A stretch of DNA of 6,440 nt, from assembly GCA_024653865.1 (NCBI GenBank), contig JANLHD010000140.1, forward strand, positions 1 through 6,440. The letters are read 5' to 3'. A program made the position numbers and the translations under genes. Source of the DNA: an archaeon. Its GTDB lineage: Archaea > Iainarchaeota > Iainarchaeia > Iainarchaeales > Iainarchaeaceae. Below, piece by piece: positions 1 to 6,440 of the stretch. The notes beneath the pieces were generated by a model that saw only the letters and a program-made list of their open reading frames with translations, was not told the origin of the DNA and made no database searches. Each line of letters begins with the position of its first letter. Position 1 is the stretch's first letter.

Positions 1-835
1 TTATCAATAGTTTCGTGATTTTGTTGCCAAAGAATTTTGGTATCATTCCTGGGGTAAAATTTATTTCAACCAATTTTTGGGACTCCTTTGTCAGGAGAAA
101 ATCCACGCTGCATATATCAGCCCCCAAAAGCTTTGCCGCGGAAAGCGCCATTTGCCTCGTGTCCTCGGAGAGTTCCACGAATTCCGCGCTTCCGCCAATG
201 CTCACATTTGCGCGCCACTCGCCCTCCCCGCCTTTGCGGCGTATGCCAACCACATTATCGCCTATGACGAGTGCGCGGTAATCGGTTGCCTCGGAGGGAA
301 CGAATTCCTGGGTGGAAATGAATTCATCAAATACGCGCAGTGTTTCAAGGATGGGCTTGAATTCGGCTTCGGAGTTCACGAGCATTACGCCCCTGCCGCC
401 AAAGCCGCTGAGCAATTTCACAACCGCGGGAAAGCCGGTTCGCTTCACGATTTTTGCGGCGACTTCAGGGGCGACCGTGATTGCAGAATCCGGCACCGGG
501 ACTCCGATTGAACTCACGACTTTTATGGTGTAAAATTTGTGGTTGCACACCTGGAATGCCTCGGCGGAACTTTGCACATAGGCGCCGGAATTTTCCAAAA
601 TGTCGAGGACCATTTCCGCGAGTACGAAATCCTCGCCAAATGCCCTAACCCAAACAACGTCGAACTCGCCGAGGTCGCTGTTCTTGTAATAAATTTTTGT
701 GCCTCCCTCCCTGCATTCAATCCTTATTTTGTTCAGGGGCACGAACAGGGTGGAATCGAACTTTTTCTGTGCCTCGCCTATGATTAGCGGCTTGACGTCG
801 TTTCCGGAGGCTCCGCTTATTATGCAGATGTTCAT
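1..835 (-). CDS. RimK-type ATP-grasp ligase, apparently catalytically intact (3' end beyond window)
   Basis: The frame is open from an ATG at 835 to the left edge: 278 codons seen, no stop. RimK-family enzymes use ATP to form an acyl-phosphate and ligate an amino acid (often glutamate) to a carboxyl group of a protein, peptide or cofactor. Visible marks: NHK near residue 98-100 opening the ATP-grasp domain, the ATP lysine K140 followed by the glycine-rich loop GFGGRGV (144-150), DYR at 185-187, WRANVSIGG (207-215), and the metal-binding set D245 in SVDF, E257 and N259 in VEINFTPGM. All expected catalytic positions are present. The start is supported by an ATGA overlap with the upstream gene's stop and by GGTGA 7 nt before the ATG. 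It is the last visible gene of a three-gene operon. The substrate cannot be read: MptN, CofF, LysX and RimK share this fold, so no symbol is given. Family call strong, substrate unknown. Confidence 0.9.
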   Translation of the reverse strand, partial: MNICIISGASGNDVKPLIIGEAQKKFDSTLFVPLNKIRIECREGGTKIYYKNSDLGEFDVVWVRAFGEDFVLAEMVLDILENSGAYVQSSAEAFQVCNHKFYTIKVVSSIGVPVPDSAITVAPEVAAKIVKRTGFPAVVKLLSGFGGRGVMLVNSEAEFKPILETLRVFDEFISTQEFVPSEATDYRALVIGDNVVGIRRKGGEGEWRANVSIGGSAEFVELSEDTRQMALSAAKLLGADICSVDFLLTKESQKLVEINFTPGMIPKFFGNKITKLLI

Positions 836-1671
836 TTTCCCTTCACCACCGATTCGTAATGTGAGGCGACCTTTTCGTACATGTTCTTGCTAAGGGTCTC
901 GTTGAACATGTTAAAGTCAATGCGCGTGCGCACGTTGGTAACCTTGCCTTCTATTATTTTCACGACCCCGATGTCCACTCCGCACACCTTTGCGGCCTTG
1001 ATCGCCATTTCCCTGTGCTCATCCGAGAGCTTTACGGACACGGGTTTTTTTGAGTGGGAGAGGTCCTTTTCCACCCACTTTCTCTTTATGCTGAAAACTT
1101 CCTCCCCGATTACCAGGCTCTGGTCAACATCCCCTTCGATGTACTCTTGGATTGTGATTGCGTCTATTTTGACGGAAATGCTCTTTACAAACGAGCGCAA
1201 GGAGCGTTCCGATTCCAATAGCACGGAATTGGTTTTTTTTAGCCCGACAAAGGTCTTGACAATCATCGGGTAGGAAAACGCCTTGAGAGAGGATTCGATT
1301 GTTTCCTTGTCCGCAAGAATGTCGGTTTTTGGTATCTTCACGCCCTTGGAGTTTAAGGTCGAGTACATGTAGGGCTTGTTTGAAAGTATGTAATACGAGG
1401 TTGGCTTTAGCTGGCAGTAGGTGCCCATGTCCACGAGTTCGCTCAAAAATGGCTCGGCAAAGAGGGTGAACTCCGCGGGAAGGGAGAGAAAAACGGAATT
1501 GTATTCTTCGAAAGGCTTTTGGTCATGGAATATGCTTGAAACGTTTTTTTCAACTATGACGCCAACGCTTCCGACGTCGACAAAATCCGCCGAGAGCTTG
1601 CGCGCCTTGAATGCATCGAGCAGTTTTTTTATGTCCTCGGACCTGGTTTCTGCGATAATTGCGACGTCCAT
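832..1671 (-). CDS. Degenerate RimK-like ATP-grasp homologue (probable pseudoenzyme)
   Basis: 279 aa. It lines up along most of its length with the ATP-grasp encoded downstream: SNKPYM at 97-102 matches NHKFYT, YPMIVKT (134-140) keeps the ATP lysine K139, VIQ-type strand TIQEYIEGDVDQSLVIG (173-189) matches QEFVPSEATDYRALVIG, and LSDEHREMAIKAAKVCG (215-231) matches LSEDTRQMALSAAKLLG. Key residues are lost: the glycine-rich loop reads GLKKTNSV (143-150), the DYR arginine is serine, the RAN motif is absent, the metal aspartate position reads GVVKI (235-239), and the E-x-N pair reads RIDFN (250-254). I infer a non-catalytic or strongly altered paralogue, perhaps a partner subunit. A start at 1764 would extend it 31 aa into the preceding gene; ATG 1671 is preferred because a Shine-Dalgarno-like site precedes it and the family's first beta strand (VAIIAE) begins there. 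It starts 7 nt after the upstream stop and overlaps the downstream start by ATGA. Confidence 0.85.
   Translation of the reverse strand: MDVAIIAETRSEDIKKLLDAFKARKLSADFVDVGSVGVIVEKNVSSIFHDQKPFEEYNSVFLSLPAEFTLFAEPFLSELVDMGTYCQLKPTSYYILSNKPYMYSTLNSKGVKIPKTDILADKETIESSLKAFSYPMIVKTFVGLKKTNSVLLESERSLRSFVKSISVKIDAITIQEYIEGDVDQSLVIGEEVFSIKRKWVEKDLSHSKKPVSVKLSDEHREMAIKAAKVCGVDIGVVKIIEGKVTNVRTRIDFNMFNETLSKNMYEKVASHYESVVKGK
843..850 (-). promoter_or_regulatory. Shine-Dalgarno site of the intact ATP-grasp gene
   Basis: On the minus strand GGTGGTGA precedes the ATG at 835, with a 7-nt spacer after the GGTGA core. It matches the archaeal anti-Shine-Dalgarno sequence and lies inside the last codons of the upstream gene. 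Together with the ATGA overlap it supports translational coupling and fixes this start. Confidence 0.65.
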
Positions 1672-1672
1672 T

Positions 1673-1687
1673 GGGAAATCACTTCCC
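1673..1687 (-). promoter_or_regulatory. Shine-Dalgarno hairpin at the junction of operon genes 1 and 2
   Basis: The minus strand reads GGGAAGTGATTTCCC just before the ATG at 1671. AAGTGAT (1684-1678) fits the archaeal Shine-Dalgarno consensus in 6 of 7 bases with a 6-nt spacer. GGGAA and TTCCC can pair into a 5-bp stem whose 5-nt loop is GTGAT, so loop and stem contain both the ribosome site and the TGA stop of the upstream gene. A ribosome finishing the upstream gene would melt it. The sequence is plain; the coupling role is inferred. Confidence 0.45.
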
Positions 1688-3304
1688 TTTCCCGCTCTTT
1701 TCCTTGGCGTCCTTCTCCTTTTCCGAAAAGCGTGAGGGCATTTTTGCGTCCGGCTTTTGGCCATTAACCTTTTGGTCTATGGATGCGCTCTTGTCGAGTT
1801 TCTGCTTTTGCCTTGAGGTGGTGAGGTCGGGCCTCCAAACGTGCTTTGCTTTGTCCTCCTTGATTTTTGGCAGAAGGTGTTCGGAAATTATTTCATTTAG
1901 CATGTTGCGCTGACGGAACTGCCTCTTCAAGTAACGCTCGAAGGACTTTGAGAGGTTTTTGTATGAGGAAACGTCGCCGTATATGAGGCCTTCGTTGAGG
2001 CGCCAGAATGCACTTGTCCCTTTTTGTGCGAACACGATGTAGCCGCGGGAAATATCGTACTCGTCCATTGCGTCCTCGAGCAGCCGATGGTTCACGAGGT
2101 AAACGCCCGCTGTCTGTTCGCTCGGGTCCATCACAATGAGTTCCTCGCCCTCGACTCCGACGCAAAGGACGTAGTGCCCGGACTTGCTTTGCTTTGTCGG
2201 GAAGAGCACCGGTTTTTTGTACCAGAGTATTATGAGTGCCCCTTCAGCAATCCATGCCTTTGCCTCTTCTGCGAGGTCGAATATTTCGTCAAAGCGAATC
2301 AATTGGCCCCTTACCCCCGCATTCGTGAACTTTTTTACTGCCAAAATCAGGTTGTCAGGGTCCGTGCCTCCGGGAACCCTTGTTTTTGCCTCGGTTGCGA
2401 GGTCCTCTTGCCTTATGTTGTAGCCGAAGAATTCAAGCATCATTTTGGCGCTCGCGGGGCCGCAAAAGCTCGGGAGCTGGGGCTCGAAATTTTTCATCAG
2501 GTATTCTATTTGGGTGATGTTGCTGCGGATGCGCTTCACCTGAATCTCTTTTGTCATGAGGTTTTTGTTTGGTATCACATGATTGTACCCTGAATTCATT
2601 TCGATTGTTGCGCCGTGGCTTGTGATGCTTATCACTTCACCTTCCACGTCCCCGATTTTAATCCTCTGGCCGGGCTTTAGAACATTTTTTTCAACATACT
2701 TTGCGAGGAGCGCATTGCTCACGTAATCCTTGAACGAGTATGCGACCAGCGCGGCGAGGAAGAACATTATGGTGAAAACCGTTCCGGCAATTATGGTGTC
2801 AAAGAAGGGCACGGGCTTTGCGTAATAATTGAGTGTGATGCTCACTAGCACGAGGTAGAGAAAAACCTTGATTATGATGAAAACCGTGTTCACCATGTTT
2901 TGGGTGACGCCGAATTCGCTGAAGTATTCTTCCTGCCCAAGGCGGACAAAAAAGCCCCTCAAAATGTCAACCATGAGGTTGATTATGATATAGCCAAGGA
3001 GCAAGAGCAAAAGTATTATGAGGACATTCGGCAGCATTCCCCACACCCTTATGAGCACGTCCTGTGCAAACGCGACCTCGAGCACGCCAAGGGCTATGAT
3101 TGTGAAGATGACGAATATCAGAAGTTCCAAAAGCCTTGCGAGCGAACGCAGGGATGATGGGGAAATGAGCTTTAGCTTGTTGTTTATTCCCTCAAGCAGG
3201 GTTGCCGCCGCCTTTGCCGCCGCAATCCCCATAACAAGGACCACAAGCGCAACAATTAGGTTGTCCGCCATGGCCTGCTCTATTATGCCGATGTATCCTT
3301 CCAC
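1679..3304 (-). CDS. MscS-type channel fused to a C39-like cysteine peptidase domain
   Basis: 541 aa from GTG 3304. About five hydrophobic helices (roughly 16-38, 58-80, 91-113, 140-160, 169-191) are followed by the MscS beta domain (196-256; KPGQRIKIGDVEGEV and the VIPNKNL motif typical of MscS). In place of the usual MscS C-terminal vestibule comes a papain-fold domain (about 264-429): Q277 in PQLPSFCGPAS, nucleophile C281, GGTDPDNL (312-319), H377 in SGHYVLCVGV and D393 in VMDPS, i.e. a complete C39-like oxyanion Gln and Cys-His-Asp set. A basic, lysine-rich, probably disordered tail (about 430-541) ends the protein. MscS topology would put the peptidase in the cytosol, below the pore. The start is uncertain: TTG 3322, TTG 3307, GTG 3304 and ATG 3271 are in frame; GTG is chosen because GGGGGGA lies 9 nt or so upstream. 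It is the first gene of the operon with two ATP-grasps. Domains sure, fusion function unknown. Confidence 0.9.
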   Translation of the reverse strand: MEGYIGIIEQAMADNLIVALVVLVMGIAAAKAAATLLEGINNKLKLISPSSLRSLARLLELLIFVIFTIIALGVLEVAFAQDVLIRVWGMLPNVLIILLLLLLGYIIINLMVDILRGFFVRLGQEEYFSEFGVTQNMVNTVFIIIKVFLYLVLVSITLNYYAKPVPFFDTIIAGTVFTIMFFLAALVAYSFKDYVSNALLAKYVEKNVLKPGQRIKIGDVEGEVISITSHGATIEMNSGYNHVIPNKNLMTKEIQVKRIRSNITQIEYLMKNFEPQLPSFCGPASAKMMLEFFGYNIRQEDLATEAKTRVPGGTDPDNLILAVKKFTNAGVRGQLIRFDEIFDLAEEAKAWIAEGALIILWYKKPVLFPTKQSKSGHYVLCVGVEGEELIVMDPSEQTAGVYLVNHRLLEDAMDEYDISRGYIVFAQKGTSAFWRLNEGLIYGDVSSYKNLSKSFERYLKRQFRQRNMLNEIISEHLLPKIKEDKAKHVWRPDLTTSRQKQKLDKSASIDQKVNGQKPDAKMPSRFSEKEKDAKEKSGKGK

Positions 3305-3330
3305 CAAAATGAATCCCCCCAACCCCGGGT

Positions 3331-3526: not shown

Positions 3527-4981
3527 ATGGCAGCAAAACAACCAAAGCTCGAAATCGGGCTTACTTTTGATGACGTTCTGCTTTTGCCCGGCTCTTCTTC
3601 TGTTTCTCCCGGCAAGGCTAATTTGGGCACAAGGCTCACAAAAAAAATCGGTTTGAACATACCGATAATGAGCGCGGCGATGGACACGGTCACCGAGTAC
3701 GGCACCGCGATTGCAATGGCGCAGCAAGGCGGCATCGGAATCATCCACAAGAACCTGACGATTGATGAGCAGGCGGCGCAGGTGGAAAGAGTGAAGCGCG
3801 CCGAGTTCCTCGTGGTCACCAACCCCGTCACCATTTCACAAAAAACAACCATAGGAGAAATCCACGCACTCAAGGCGCAATTCAACGTGCGCAGCTTCCC
3901 CGTAATAGAGAACGGAAAATTGGTTGGAATTGTGACGAACCGCGATTTGGTTTTCGAGGACGATGAATCGAAAACCGCCGAGGAAATAATGACAAAGGAT
4001 TTGGTCACCGCGCCCCCTGGCACAAGCCCCGAGCAGGCGAAGAGCATTCTTCACTCTAACAGGGTTGAAAAGCTCCCGCTCGTGGACTCCAAGGGCGAAC
4101 TAAAAGGCCTCATTACGATTACCGACATCGAGAACACGCAAAAATACCCGCACTCGAACAAGGACAAGAAAGGAAGGCTGGTTGTGGGCGCGAGCATCGG
4201 CGCGAAAGACGAAAAAAGAATTGAGGCGCTTATGGAAAAAGAGGTTGATGTGCTCGTGCTTGACACTTCGCACGGCCACCGCGATGTCGTGGTTGATGCG
4301 GTGAAGAGGTACAAGAAAAATTATGACATTCAATTGATTGCCGGCAACGTCGCAACGTATGAGGGAACAAAAGCGCTGGTGAAGGCGGGCGCCGACTCGG
4401 TGAAGGTCGGGGTTGGGCCTGGGGCAATTTGCACCACTCGCGTGATTGCGGGCGTTTGGGTTCCGCAGATTACCGCGGTGATGGAGGCTGCAAGGGCTGT
4501 GAAGGGCACATCTGTTACAATCATTAGCGATGGCGGAATAAAATACTCGGGCGACATAGTGAAGGCGATTGCGGCGGGCGCGGATTGTGTCATGGTTGGC
4601 TCTATGCTCGCGGGTTGCGAGGAGACGCCTGGAAAAATTGTTTACATGAACAACCGCAAGTTCAAGCAATACCGCGGCATGGGAAGCCTGGGCGCAATGG
4701 AGAGGGGTTCGAAGGAGAGGTACTTCCAGGCGGAGGTCAAGCAAACAAGCAAGCTCGTGCCCGAGGGAATCGAGGGGGTTGTCCCTTACAAGGGCGCGGT
4801 TGCGGAGGTCATTTACCAGTTGACGGGCGGGCTTAGAAGCGGCATGGGCCTCACCGGGGCGGCAACGATTGCAGAGCTGAAGAAAAAGAAGATGGTGAAA
4901 ATAACCGAGGCTGGGCTCAAGGAATCCCACCCGCACGACATCACAATCACCGAAGAGGCGCCGAATTACTCTCCATATTAA
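3527..4981 (+). CDS. guaB: Inosine-5'-monophosphate dehydrogenase
   Basis: 484 aa, the usual length for a CBS-containing IMPDH. It oxidises IMP to XMP with NAD+ in the cytosol, the first committed step to GMP. The N-terminal barrel segment shows LTFDDVLLLPG (12-22) and PIMSAAMDTVTE (46-57). Two CBS domains (about 95-143 and 154-203) interrupt the barrel and in the family bind adenine or guanine nucleotides for regulation. Then DTSHGH (246-251), GNVAT (273-277), the catalytic loop GVGPGAICTTR (295-305) with nucleophile C302 and monovalent-cation ligands, phosphate-binding SDGGI (334-338) and GSMLAG (358-363), YRGMGS (382-387), the flap dyad R398-Y399 and the family C-terminus HPHDITITEEAPNYS. 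Odd point: the loop after the cysteine reads AGVWVPQ, with W311 where GVGVPQ is usual. The gene is monocistronic, with its own TATA box and a T-tract terminator. ATG 3527 is fixed by the leaderless promoter and by family alignment. Confidence 0.98.
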   Translation: MAAKQPKLEIGLTFDDVLLLPGSSSVSPGKANLGTRLTKKIGLNIPIMSAAMDTVTEYGTAIAMAQQGGIGIIHKNLTIDEQAAQVERVKRAEFLVVTNPVTISQKTTIGEIHALKAQFNVRSFPVIENGKLVGIVTNRDLVFEDDESKTAEEIMTKDLVTAPPGTSPEQAKSILHSNRVEKLPLVDSKGELKGLITITDIENTQKYPHSNKDKKGRLVVGASIGAKDEKRIEALMEKEVDVLVLDTSHGHRDVVVDAVKRYKKNYDIQLIAGNVATYEGTKALVKAGADSVKVGVGPGAICTTRVIAGVWVPQITAVMEAARAVKGTSVTIISDGGIKYSGDIVKAIAAGADCVMVGSMLAGCEETPGKIVYMNNRKFKQYRGMGSLGAMERGSKERYFQAEVKQTSKLVPEGIEGVVPYKGAVAEVIYQLTGGLRSGMGLTGAATIAELKKKKMVKITEAGLKESHPHDITITEEAPNYSPY

Positions 4982-5038: not shown

Positions 5039-5536
5039 TTATTTGTTGTATTTTCTTGCAAGTTCATTCTGGCTTTCGGAAAGTTCATCCTGCAGCTTCA
5101 ATATTTCGTCCTTGAGCTTTTCAATGTCCTTGGTGAGGGGTTGGGCAGAAATTACTTCCTTCATTTCAAGCACGTCCTTTTGCAGGATTTTTATTTCCCG
5201 CTCGGCCCTGCGGTTTATGTAATAATCCAGCTCCGCCCTCTTCCGGTCCATTTCGGAGGCGCGGTTTTGGCTCATAAGAATTACGGGCGCCTGCAATGCG
5301 GCAATTGTGCTAAGCACCAGGTTGAGCAGGATGAAAGGGTAGGGGTCCCATGGGCGGGCAATGAAAATAAAGGCATTCAAACTCACCCACAATAGCATGA
5401 AAACCAGGAAAAAAATTATGAAATTCCAGCTGCCTGCCTTTAGGGCGACTTCGTCAGCGAGCTTTTCCCCGAAAGTTCTTTTCGAGAAATGCCTCAAATC
5501 CTGGGCTTTGATGTTTTTGCCATCTTGTGATTGCAT
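5039..5536 (-). CDS. DUF1003 family inner-membrane protein with C-terminal coiled coil
   Basis: 165 aa. The signature is clear: a cytosolic N-terminus, GSWNFI (35-40) leading into helix 1 (about 38-59), the short PWDPYPFILLN linker (62-72), helix 2 (about 67-86), then the family motif MSQNRASEMDRKRAELDY (88-105) with INRRAEREI after it. Residues 135-162 are strongly heptad-like and charged, predicting a coiled coil. DUF1003 has no established biochemical role; it is a small two-helix membrane protein found in bacteria and archaea. The ATG at 5536 follows a TATA box by 30 nt, implying a leaderless message, and the gene stands alone, convergent with guaB. The membrane-embedded core is typical; the coiled-coil tail may let it oligomerise or bind a partner (inference). 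Confidence 0.92.
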   Translation of the reverse strand: MQSQDGKNIKAQDLRHFSKRTFGEKLADEVALKAGSWNFIIFFLVFMLLWVSLNAFIFIARPWDPYPFILLNLVLSTIAALQAPVILMSQNRASEMDRKRAELDYYINRRAEREIKILQKDVLEMKEVISAQPLTKDIEKLKDEILKLQDELSESQNELARKYNK

Positions 5537-5758: not shown

Positions 5759-6440
5759 GTGGACCCAAGGATTGTTGCCGCATTTTTTGTTTTGGCACTC
5801 GCCGGCTCCGCGCTTGCGGCGGGAAGCATTTCACTTAGCCCGGCAAGCATTGCAGGTGTAGTTGGCGGCACGGCGCAAATAAGCGTTGCCGCGACTTCGG
5901 TCACAAACCTCTACGGGTACCAATTCGATGTGCAGTACGATTCATCTGTGCTTGAGTTGAACACGGTGCAGTACTCGAATGTTCTGGGGACCTCGAGTTC
6001 GCCGCAGCAAAAATTCTGCACACCGCAGGCCAATTGGGAAACCTCGACAGGGCATGTGGGAAACCTTGCGTGCACGAGAATAATTGCGGGCGAAATAAAT
6101 CCCGCAAATGGGAACCTTGCGACAATAACTTTTAACGTCATCGGCGAGGGAAGCGGGACAATTACAGTTTCAGACGTCCTTGTTTCGAATTCACAGGCGC
6201 AGAGCGTGAGTGTTGCCATAACAAATCCGAGCTCGTCTTTTAGTTCGTGCCAGGCGCAGGATGTTGTGTGCACTTCTTCGGCACAATGCAATGATGGCAA
6301 TCTTGCGACCACGGATTTGTGCCTAAATGCGGGAACCTGCAATGCCAGCTGTTCGAATGTTTCGAACATTGACGTTTGTGCACAGGGTGAAATTTTAGAG
6401 CAATGCACTTGCGGGGACGGGGCGTATTCACAGGGGTATT
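5759..6440 (+). CDS. Secreted cohesin-like, cysteine-rich surface protein (3' end beyond window)
   Basis: The frame is open from GTG 5759 to the right edge: 227 codons seen. Residues 1-20 form a Sec signal peptide (MDPR, hydrophobic core, cleavage after SALA). Residues about 22-155 resemble a cohesin-type beta sandwich: SISLSPASI, then LYGYQFDVQYDSSVLEL (51-67) and GNLATITFNVIGEGSGTITVSDVLV (118-142 region), the usual cohesin strand pattern. C87 and C105 could form a disulfide in it. From C164 the chain becomes cysteine-rich (nine Cys to residue 218) with QCNDGNLATTDLC (176-188), like the C-x-DGN-x-x-TxD-x-C repeats of archaeal and bacterial extracellular proteins. In cellulosomes cohesins bind dockerins; in archaea the same fold occurs in surface proteins of unknown partner. 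Start chosen from the TATA box 29 nt upstream and an in-frame TAA at 5723. Membrane anchor or further domains would lie beyond the edge. Confidence 0.85.
   Translation, partial: MDPRIVAAFFVLALAGSALAAGSISLSPASIAGVVGGTAQISVAATSVTNLYGYQFDVQYDSSVLELNTVQYSNVLGTSSSPQQKFCTPQANWETSTGHVGNLACTRIIAGEINPANGNLATITFNVIGEGSGTITVSDVLVSNSQAQSVSVAITNPSSSFSSCQAQDVVCTSSAQCNDGNLATTDLCLNAGTCNASCSNVSNIDVCAQGEILEQCTCGDGAYSQGY

Follow-up and report, generated by a model that had tools for sequence, protein, structure and literature searches.

Where a mechanosensitive-type channel module and a cysteine peptidase are joined in one chain, the question arises of what the peptidase acts on and with which partners it works. 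Such a chain, designated MscS-C39 in the following, is encoded on the 6,440-nucleotide contig JANLHD010000140.1 of an archaeon of the Iainarchaeota (assembly GCA_024653865.1), the whole of which is referred to here as the window. To our knowledge, this channel-plus-peptidase architecture has no close precedent. The gene heads a tight trio with two genes of the RimK type, AG1, an ATP-grasp protein whose active site is degenerate, and AG2, a RimK-family ligase with intact ATP-grasp residues, and in relatives of this archaeon the same pair stands beside a retropepsin of the RimB type. MscS-C39 most likely took the slot of RimB beside the ligase pair, and we propose, with evenly balanced confidence, that it removes chains, predicted to consist of glutamate, that AG2 would add.

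The MscS-C39 family

The fusion is a real protein family. A protein search gave 67 matches at E<=0.001, including the protein of the window, among the best 7997 candidates scored, and a scan of genomes with the family alignment gave 65 loci, 63 archaeal and two bacterial, the latter being C39-only matches of 26-27% identity; a scan of genome contigs with the single window protein found no relative, but the alignment scan did. Two of the archaeal loci, L109 and L110, carry the remaining piece of a gene already represented by L090 and L076, respectively, and were not counted again; with the window included, the family comprises 62 genes in distinct archaeal genomes. The locus titles are Diapherotrites, Micrarchaeota, Aenigmarchaeota, Nanohaloarchaea, Nano- or Woesearchaeota, "DPANN group", "archaeon" and "uncultured euryarchaeote" (L107), that is, the genomes are labelled as DPANN lineages or, as we assume, group with them. 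Some members have been named "C39 family peptidase" or "mechanosensitive ion channel" by NCBI, and the farthest aligned ones share about 30% identity. In a tree of the C39 part (61 rows; proteins shorter than 350 amino acids, L090 and L109, are omitted), all 29 rows with linked ligases fall into one branch of 31, which they share with L057 and L076, the latter truncated by the contig end; none of the 30 rows of the second branch has linked ligases, and Aenigmarchaeota and Nanohaloarchaea are present in both branches.

The MscS-C39 protein of the window has 547 amino acids if translation starts at the TTG at 3322 and 541 if it starts at the GTG at 3304. The fifth predicted membrane helix extends into a pore-helix-like segment with the motif F-K/R-D/E-x3-N, and Asn203 is kept in 65 of the 67 aligned proteins. 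The pore helix TM3a of MscS has a small-residue packing pattern; in the last helix of MscS-C39, Gly, Ala or Ser are common at positions 180, 184, 191 and 196 across the 67 proteins, with bulky residues between them. The beta-domain is matched by PF00924 at E<=0.001 in 46 of the 67 members. The original prediction of MscS helices and a beta-domain running into a papain fold that takes the place of the cytosolic alpha/beta vestibule holds, according to Pfam and the fold search: the vestibule is missing and the C39 fold sits in that position. The MscS rows of the fold search have root-mean-square deviations of 7-13 Å, and thus support single pieces but not their arrangement.

The catalytic set of the C39-like domain is intact in the window (Gln282, Cys287, His383, Asp399). 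Its nearest folds, papain-like as had been anticipated, are the isopeptidase PeiR and phytochelatin synthase (the structure of an acyl-enzyme with glutathione), and the phytochelatin synthase family PF05023 matches 11 of the 67 members. Both the catalytic cysteine and the histidine are kept in 66 of the 67 aligned proteins; among orthologues they do not vary freely, two members with dead sites (see below) aside. This conservation argues for a working peptidase. In the extension that follows the domain, Arg441, Tyr454 and Trp496 are invariant; a Lys-rich tail follows residue 513 in the window's protein, and the confidence of the AlphaFold2 model drops from about residue 470.

The ligase pair and the probable exchange of its peptidase

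MscS-C39 is the first gene of the trio in 31 of the 62 cases. In 30 of 64 loci (the window plus L048-L110), MscS-C39 is succeeded on its own strand by AG1, and in 29 of the 30 AG2 comes next; the exception is L048, whose contig stops within AG1. In 22 of the 29 loci with both, the two ligase genes overlap by 1-14 bases, in the window by 4. The gene of NHA24 was scored as a trio, as L110 carries AG1 and AG2 after its C-terminal piece, and its other piece, L076, appears as "noAG" on the tree. Trios were found in loci titled Diapherotrites, Micrarchaeota, Aenigmarchaeota and Nanohaloarchaea, and their order is constant across Diapherotrites, Aenigmarchaeota and Nanohaloarchaea while the other neighbours vary.

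AG2 of the window is matched by PF08443 (3.7e-30) and by TIGR00768 over its cut-off, and its best match in the PDB is RimK (1e-25). Both ATP lysines, the Gly loop, the RSN motif and the Asp/Glu/Asn metal ligands are present in 28 of 28 aligned trio copies of AG2, whereas AG1 has retained the RimK fold and lost most of the Gly loop and the metal ligands. Copies shorter than 220-230 amino acids (the split AG2 of L055) are omitted from the ligase alignments and trees, and those shorter than 250-260 (AG1 of L048 and L157) from the residue table.

The ligase pair, scored by AG1 at more than 150 bits, occurs in 34 of the 87 genomes of the window's phylum, 11 of which possess MscS-C39 and 23 of which are without a full MscS-C39. 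The RimB-type family PF05618 is found at E<=0.001 in 22 of these 23 genomes (21 over the Pfam cut-off) and in none of the 11; it was also absent from 30 further trio genomes, and the overall figure for trio genomes is 0 of 31. With a profile of archaeal RimB sequences, the 31 trio genomes gave a single weak match, interrupted by stops, of 21 bits; three RimB genomes gave 172-186 bits, but these are not independent controls, since their own sequences are rows of the profile. Distances were determined in 20 of the 22 loci; in each of these RimB is head-to-head with AG1, 19 of the gaps being no larger than 294 bases and one reaching 1320. The motif D-T/S-G-A/S was seen in all 22. Both Diapherotrites locus types have neighbours in common, namely genes for a cytidylyltransferase-like protein (12 of the 22 RimB-type loci), a Tyr/Trp-type tRNA synthetase (8/22) and IMP dehydrogenase (7/22), and so one peptidase appears to have given way to another at one and the same site of the chromosome. 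One further PF05618 match, in G086, lies beside a different RimK-like gene. In the phylum loci without MscS-C39 (L137-L158), an archaeal retropepsin of the RimB type is placed head-to-head with a pair of pseudo-RimK and RimK, and in L146 a gene for a GCN5-related N-acetyltransferase (GNAT) follows RimB.

Bacterial RimB removes the glutamates that RimK adds to RpsF, as reported in PMC11957791. Since, in addition, 22 of the 23 pair-bearing relatives carry a RimB-type retropepsin and the trio genomes give no match to its Pfam model, MscS-C39 would have replaced RimB as counter-enzyme of the ligase. The original prediction contained neither the ligase operon nor this exchange, and both point to the removal of a ligase product.

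Proposed function

In bacteria, RimK also makes free poly-alpha-glutamate and is stimulated in this by RimB (PMC11957791), and RloA, a relative of RimB, cuts poly-glutamate (PMC12239564, PMC11957791). The rlo operon, which encodes a protease, a membrane protein and an ATP-grasp protein, controls hypo-osmotic tolerance; mutants without the three RloA proteases fail under hypo-osmotic conditions and are rescued by removing RloC (the ATP-grasp protein) or RloB (the membrane protein) (PMC12239564, PMC11957791). By analogy with RimB and RloA, the membrane-anchored MscS-C39 would erase the product of AG2, which may make alpha-glutamyl chains, either at the end of a protein or as free chains in the cytosol, and AG1 may be a regulatory or scaffold partner of AG2. 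If the topology of MscS applies, the peptidase domain would be located on the cytosolic side. Tension on the MscS module might then open or re-orient the peptidase ring beneath the pore, so that a drop in outside osmolarity would trigger removal of the product. Such tension control is the most speculative step and the one with the least support. The original interpretation finds partial support: a protease activity coupled to a channel would fit the anatomy, and the catalytic conservation supports a working peptidase. That the pore itself is the peptidase, with tension switching a C39-like ring that erases RimK-type glutamyl chains, evolved in DPANN archaea by replacement of RimB, is possible but decidedly tentative.

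Several observations weigh against erasure of an AG2 product under tension control. The trio member L084 (L084:8001-9494), a natural dead-peptidase version of the trio, has Gln, Cys and His all replaced beside an intact AG2, and the peptidase site of P0059 is likewise dead; together with the reported stimulation of RimK by RimB, these dead sites make a non-catalytic role of MscS-C39 possible. Tension gating is argued from resemblance to MscS, and all 11 Diapherotrites trio genomes possess other MscS genes, by which the notion that MscS-C39 is the sole MscS of the cell was ruled out. The ATP lysines of the trio AG1 are still present in 27/29 and 18/29 copies and Asp replaces the metal Glu in 15/29, so that the inactivity of AG1 is not certain. 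As to the exchange, the PF05618 matches span the second half of the model only and are near its cut-off, and G019 has the ligase pair and neither peptidase in the stretch checked. On the AG1 tree a single change accounts for the exchange, and on the AG2 tree two (MscS-C39) or three (RimB); the trees were obtained by quick searches with support from the Shimodaira-Hasegawa-like approximate likelihood ratio test (SH-aLRT) only, and the partner labels of the AG2 tree were assigned by hand from the RimB results. The exchange thus reflects a few events that stayed clean, and the genome counts are not independent tests; their use as such was dropped after the trees, and the Fisher p of 4e-8, which ignores descent, is not counted as support.

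A further objection comes from the branch without linked ligases. No ligase is linked to 31 of the 62 MscS-C39 genes, of which one, L101, stops at the contig end and is not judgeable. An AG2-like ligase (>150 bits) is encoded elsewhere in 28 of these 31 genomes and a RimB-type match occurs in 27, in 24 of them beside the AG2-like ligase (coordinates compared by eye). Since RimB and RimK coexist there with MscS-C39, it does not replace RimB in this branch, and its job may differ from that in the trio. In L120 and L121 (genomes G106 and G108), a RimB-type match stands next to a pair of adjacent RimK-like genes, on contigs other than the one with the MscS-C39 of that genome. L057 lies within the trio branch but has no ligase linked to it; its genome gives no match to AG1 and only a weak one to AG2.

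Alternative explanations

Best placed among the alternatives, albeit rather unlikely, is a turnover of osmolytes or small glutamyl peptides without any protein substrate, in which the ligases make a free peptide (poly-glutamate, glutathione-like or of the N-acetyl-glutaminyl type) that MscS-C39 degrades and/or releases on down-shock. MscS channels are tied to down-shock, also in literature abstracts. The free poly-alpha-glutamate of RimK (PMC11957791) would be one such product, and in bacteria the osmoprotectant N-acetylglutaminylglutamine amide (NAGGN) is the product of an operon that combines an asparagine synthase with the acetylating ligase Ngg and a glutamyl aminopeptidase (PMC8070244). 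Genes of the glutamate-cysteine ligase family 2 (GCS2) lie within five genes of MscS-C39 in L053, L054, L055, L065, L068 and L069, which represent two archaeal groups (three of the six were scanned with Pfam), and M20 or M29 peptidase genes are found near the trio in some loci; these neighbours and the resemblance to phytochelatin synthase keep the small-molecule version alive. GCS2 is limited to these 6 loci, however, and M20 to 5. Trk potassium gene families near the nanohaloarchaeal trios (11-12 loci, one of each scanned) would suit an osmotic role, but they are confined to one group and may be an inherited neighbourhood, and the other MscS genes of the 11 genomes tested also argue against this turnover.

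That the MscS part is a mere membrane anchor, by which a tethered peptidase without channel or tension function trims membrane-associated ligase products, is improbable. The PF00924 match is weak and missing at E<=0.001 in 21 of the 67 members, many positions of the last membrane helix carry large residues, and the 11 genomes tested contain further MscS genes; the beta-domain and Asn203 are nevertheless kept down to about 30% identity, and a mere anchor would need neither of them. Still less probable is an incidental linkage, in which the C39 part serves general quality control or acts on peptides of a host or symbiont and the ligases are neighbours by descent: it would account for the half of the family without a linked ligase and for the dead peptidase variants, but not for the trio order that persists amid differing neighbours, nor for the absence of a RimB match from all 31 trio genomes.

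Very improbable, finally, is a pathway for ribosomally synthesized and post-translationally modified peptides of the graspetide type, with two ligases modifying a precursor, C39 cutting the leader and the MscS pore exporting the product, since 228 small open reading frames (ORFs) from 30 loci include no conserved precursor-like one by the trio, the active site of AG1 is degenerate, the solved structure nearest to AG2 is RimK, and RimB occupies the same slot in relatives. This comparison covered ORFs of 20-110 amino acids lying mostly outside larger genes, and not distant genes; those common to several trio loci were, as judged by eye, zinc-ribbon genes or antisense frames. An ABC transporter was seen neither in the window nor in the families of shared neighbours covered by the Pfam scan, which are a part of all neighbours. 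Given the lack of a precursor ORF and of an ABC transporter partner and the linkage to RimK-type ligases, the idea that a cleaved peptide leaves the cell by way of the pore, also considered in the original prediction, finds no support.

Features of the window and neighbouring genes

The features of the trio in the window are compiled in Table 1. Further genes are one for IMP dehydrogenase (3527-4981) and a DUF1003 gene (5039-5536), both ordinary by their Pfam matches, and the start of a secreted-looking cohesin-domain protein (5759-6440), truncated at the contig end. A third RimK-like ATP-grasp gene adjoins the trio in several Diapherotrites loci (for example L054:9386-10216 and L051:7101-7904), which sometimes also contain M20 or M29 peptidase genes. 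Genes for S6e and an eIF2-gamma-like protein lie upstream of the nanohaloarchaeal trios (for example in L063-L071 and L107), and divergently oriented TrkH/TrkA genes for potassium uptake are close by. eIF2-gamma or S6e as substrate, suggested by this synteny, was dropped because the neighbours differ elsewhere, being EF-G in Aenigmarchaeota and IMP dehydrogenase and M20 in Diapherotrites.

Table 1 Coordinates of the MscS-C39 gene, its predicted domains and the two ATP-grasp genes in the window
Feature	Position	Strand	Basis or remark
MscS-C39 fusion gene	1679..3322	-	ORF, Pfam domains, alignment of 67 family proteins
Five predicted membrane helices, residues 19-214	2681..3268	-	Hydropathy over 67 proteins; helices of the AlphaFold2 model
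MscS beta-domain, residues 215-263	2534..2680	-	PF00924 above cut-off
C39-like papain-fold peptidase domain, residues 271-436	2015..2512	-	Pfam, fold search
Conserved C-terminal extension after the peptidase domain, residues 437-513	1784..2014	-	Invariant columns
AG1, RimK-fold ATP-grasp protein, degenerate active site	832..1671	-	ORF open from 1764; likely start 1671
AG2, RimK-family ligase, intact ATP-grasp residues, C-terminus cut by contig end	2..835	-	Pfam, TIGR and PDB matches

Relation to known systems

The trio resembles the RimK-RimB system of Pseudomonas, which acts in polyglutamylation of ribosomal protein S6, in its RimK-family ligase with intact residues (AG2), and differs from it by a membrane-bound C39-like peptidase in place of a soluble aspartic one, by the extra degenerate ligase and by being archaeal. 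With the rlo operon, linked to osmotic stress in bacteria (PMC12239564), it shares the combination of protease, membrane protein and ATP-grasp protein. However, the protease RloA is a secreted protein and RloB, which has seven transmembrane helices, an inactive transglutaminase, whereas MscS-C39 unites protease and membrane module in one chain and its peptidase is predicted to lie on the side of the ligase; of the rlo parts, only the ATP-grasp protein has a counterpart in the window, and Pfam gave no RimB-type match in the genome. MscS channels possess an alpha/beta vestibule and three membrane helices, in contrast to the peptidase and five helices of MscS-C39. Unlike the C39 domains of ABC exporters (ComA, PCAT1), that of MscS-C39 is C-terminal to a channel module, its chain contains no ABC transporter, and no double-glycine precursor was found near the trio. 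The pseudomurein endoisopeptidase PeiR and the phytochelatin synthase Alr0975 have other substrates and about 20% identity, and their entries name no MscS module.

The papain fold, the ligases and the retropepsin are each of a known kind, and their combination is not among the literature matches listed; a full-text search, with subscription journals mostly outside its reach, listed no paper on MscS-C39 among its matches. A survey of RimB and RimK took in 5959 bacterial accessions, and no word beginning with "archaea" occurs in its text (PMC11957791).

If the proposed erasure of an AG2 product is correct, RimK-type write-erase modules would be placed in DPANN archaea, and the trio would represent a natural swap in which a cysteine-type peptidase stands in the slot of an aspartic one. 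Since a membrane-sensor-like module and a peptidase are joined in one chain, the osmotic link is testable: it would offer a route from membrane tension to covalent modification, and if tension directly switched the peptidase, a single protein, MscS-C39, would tie osmotic force to a cycle of covalent writing and erasing.
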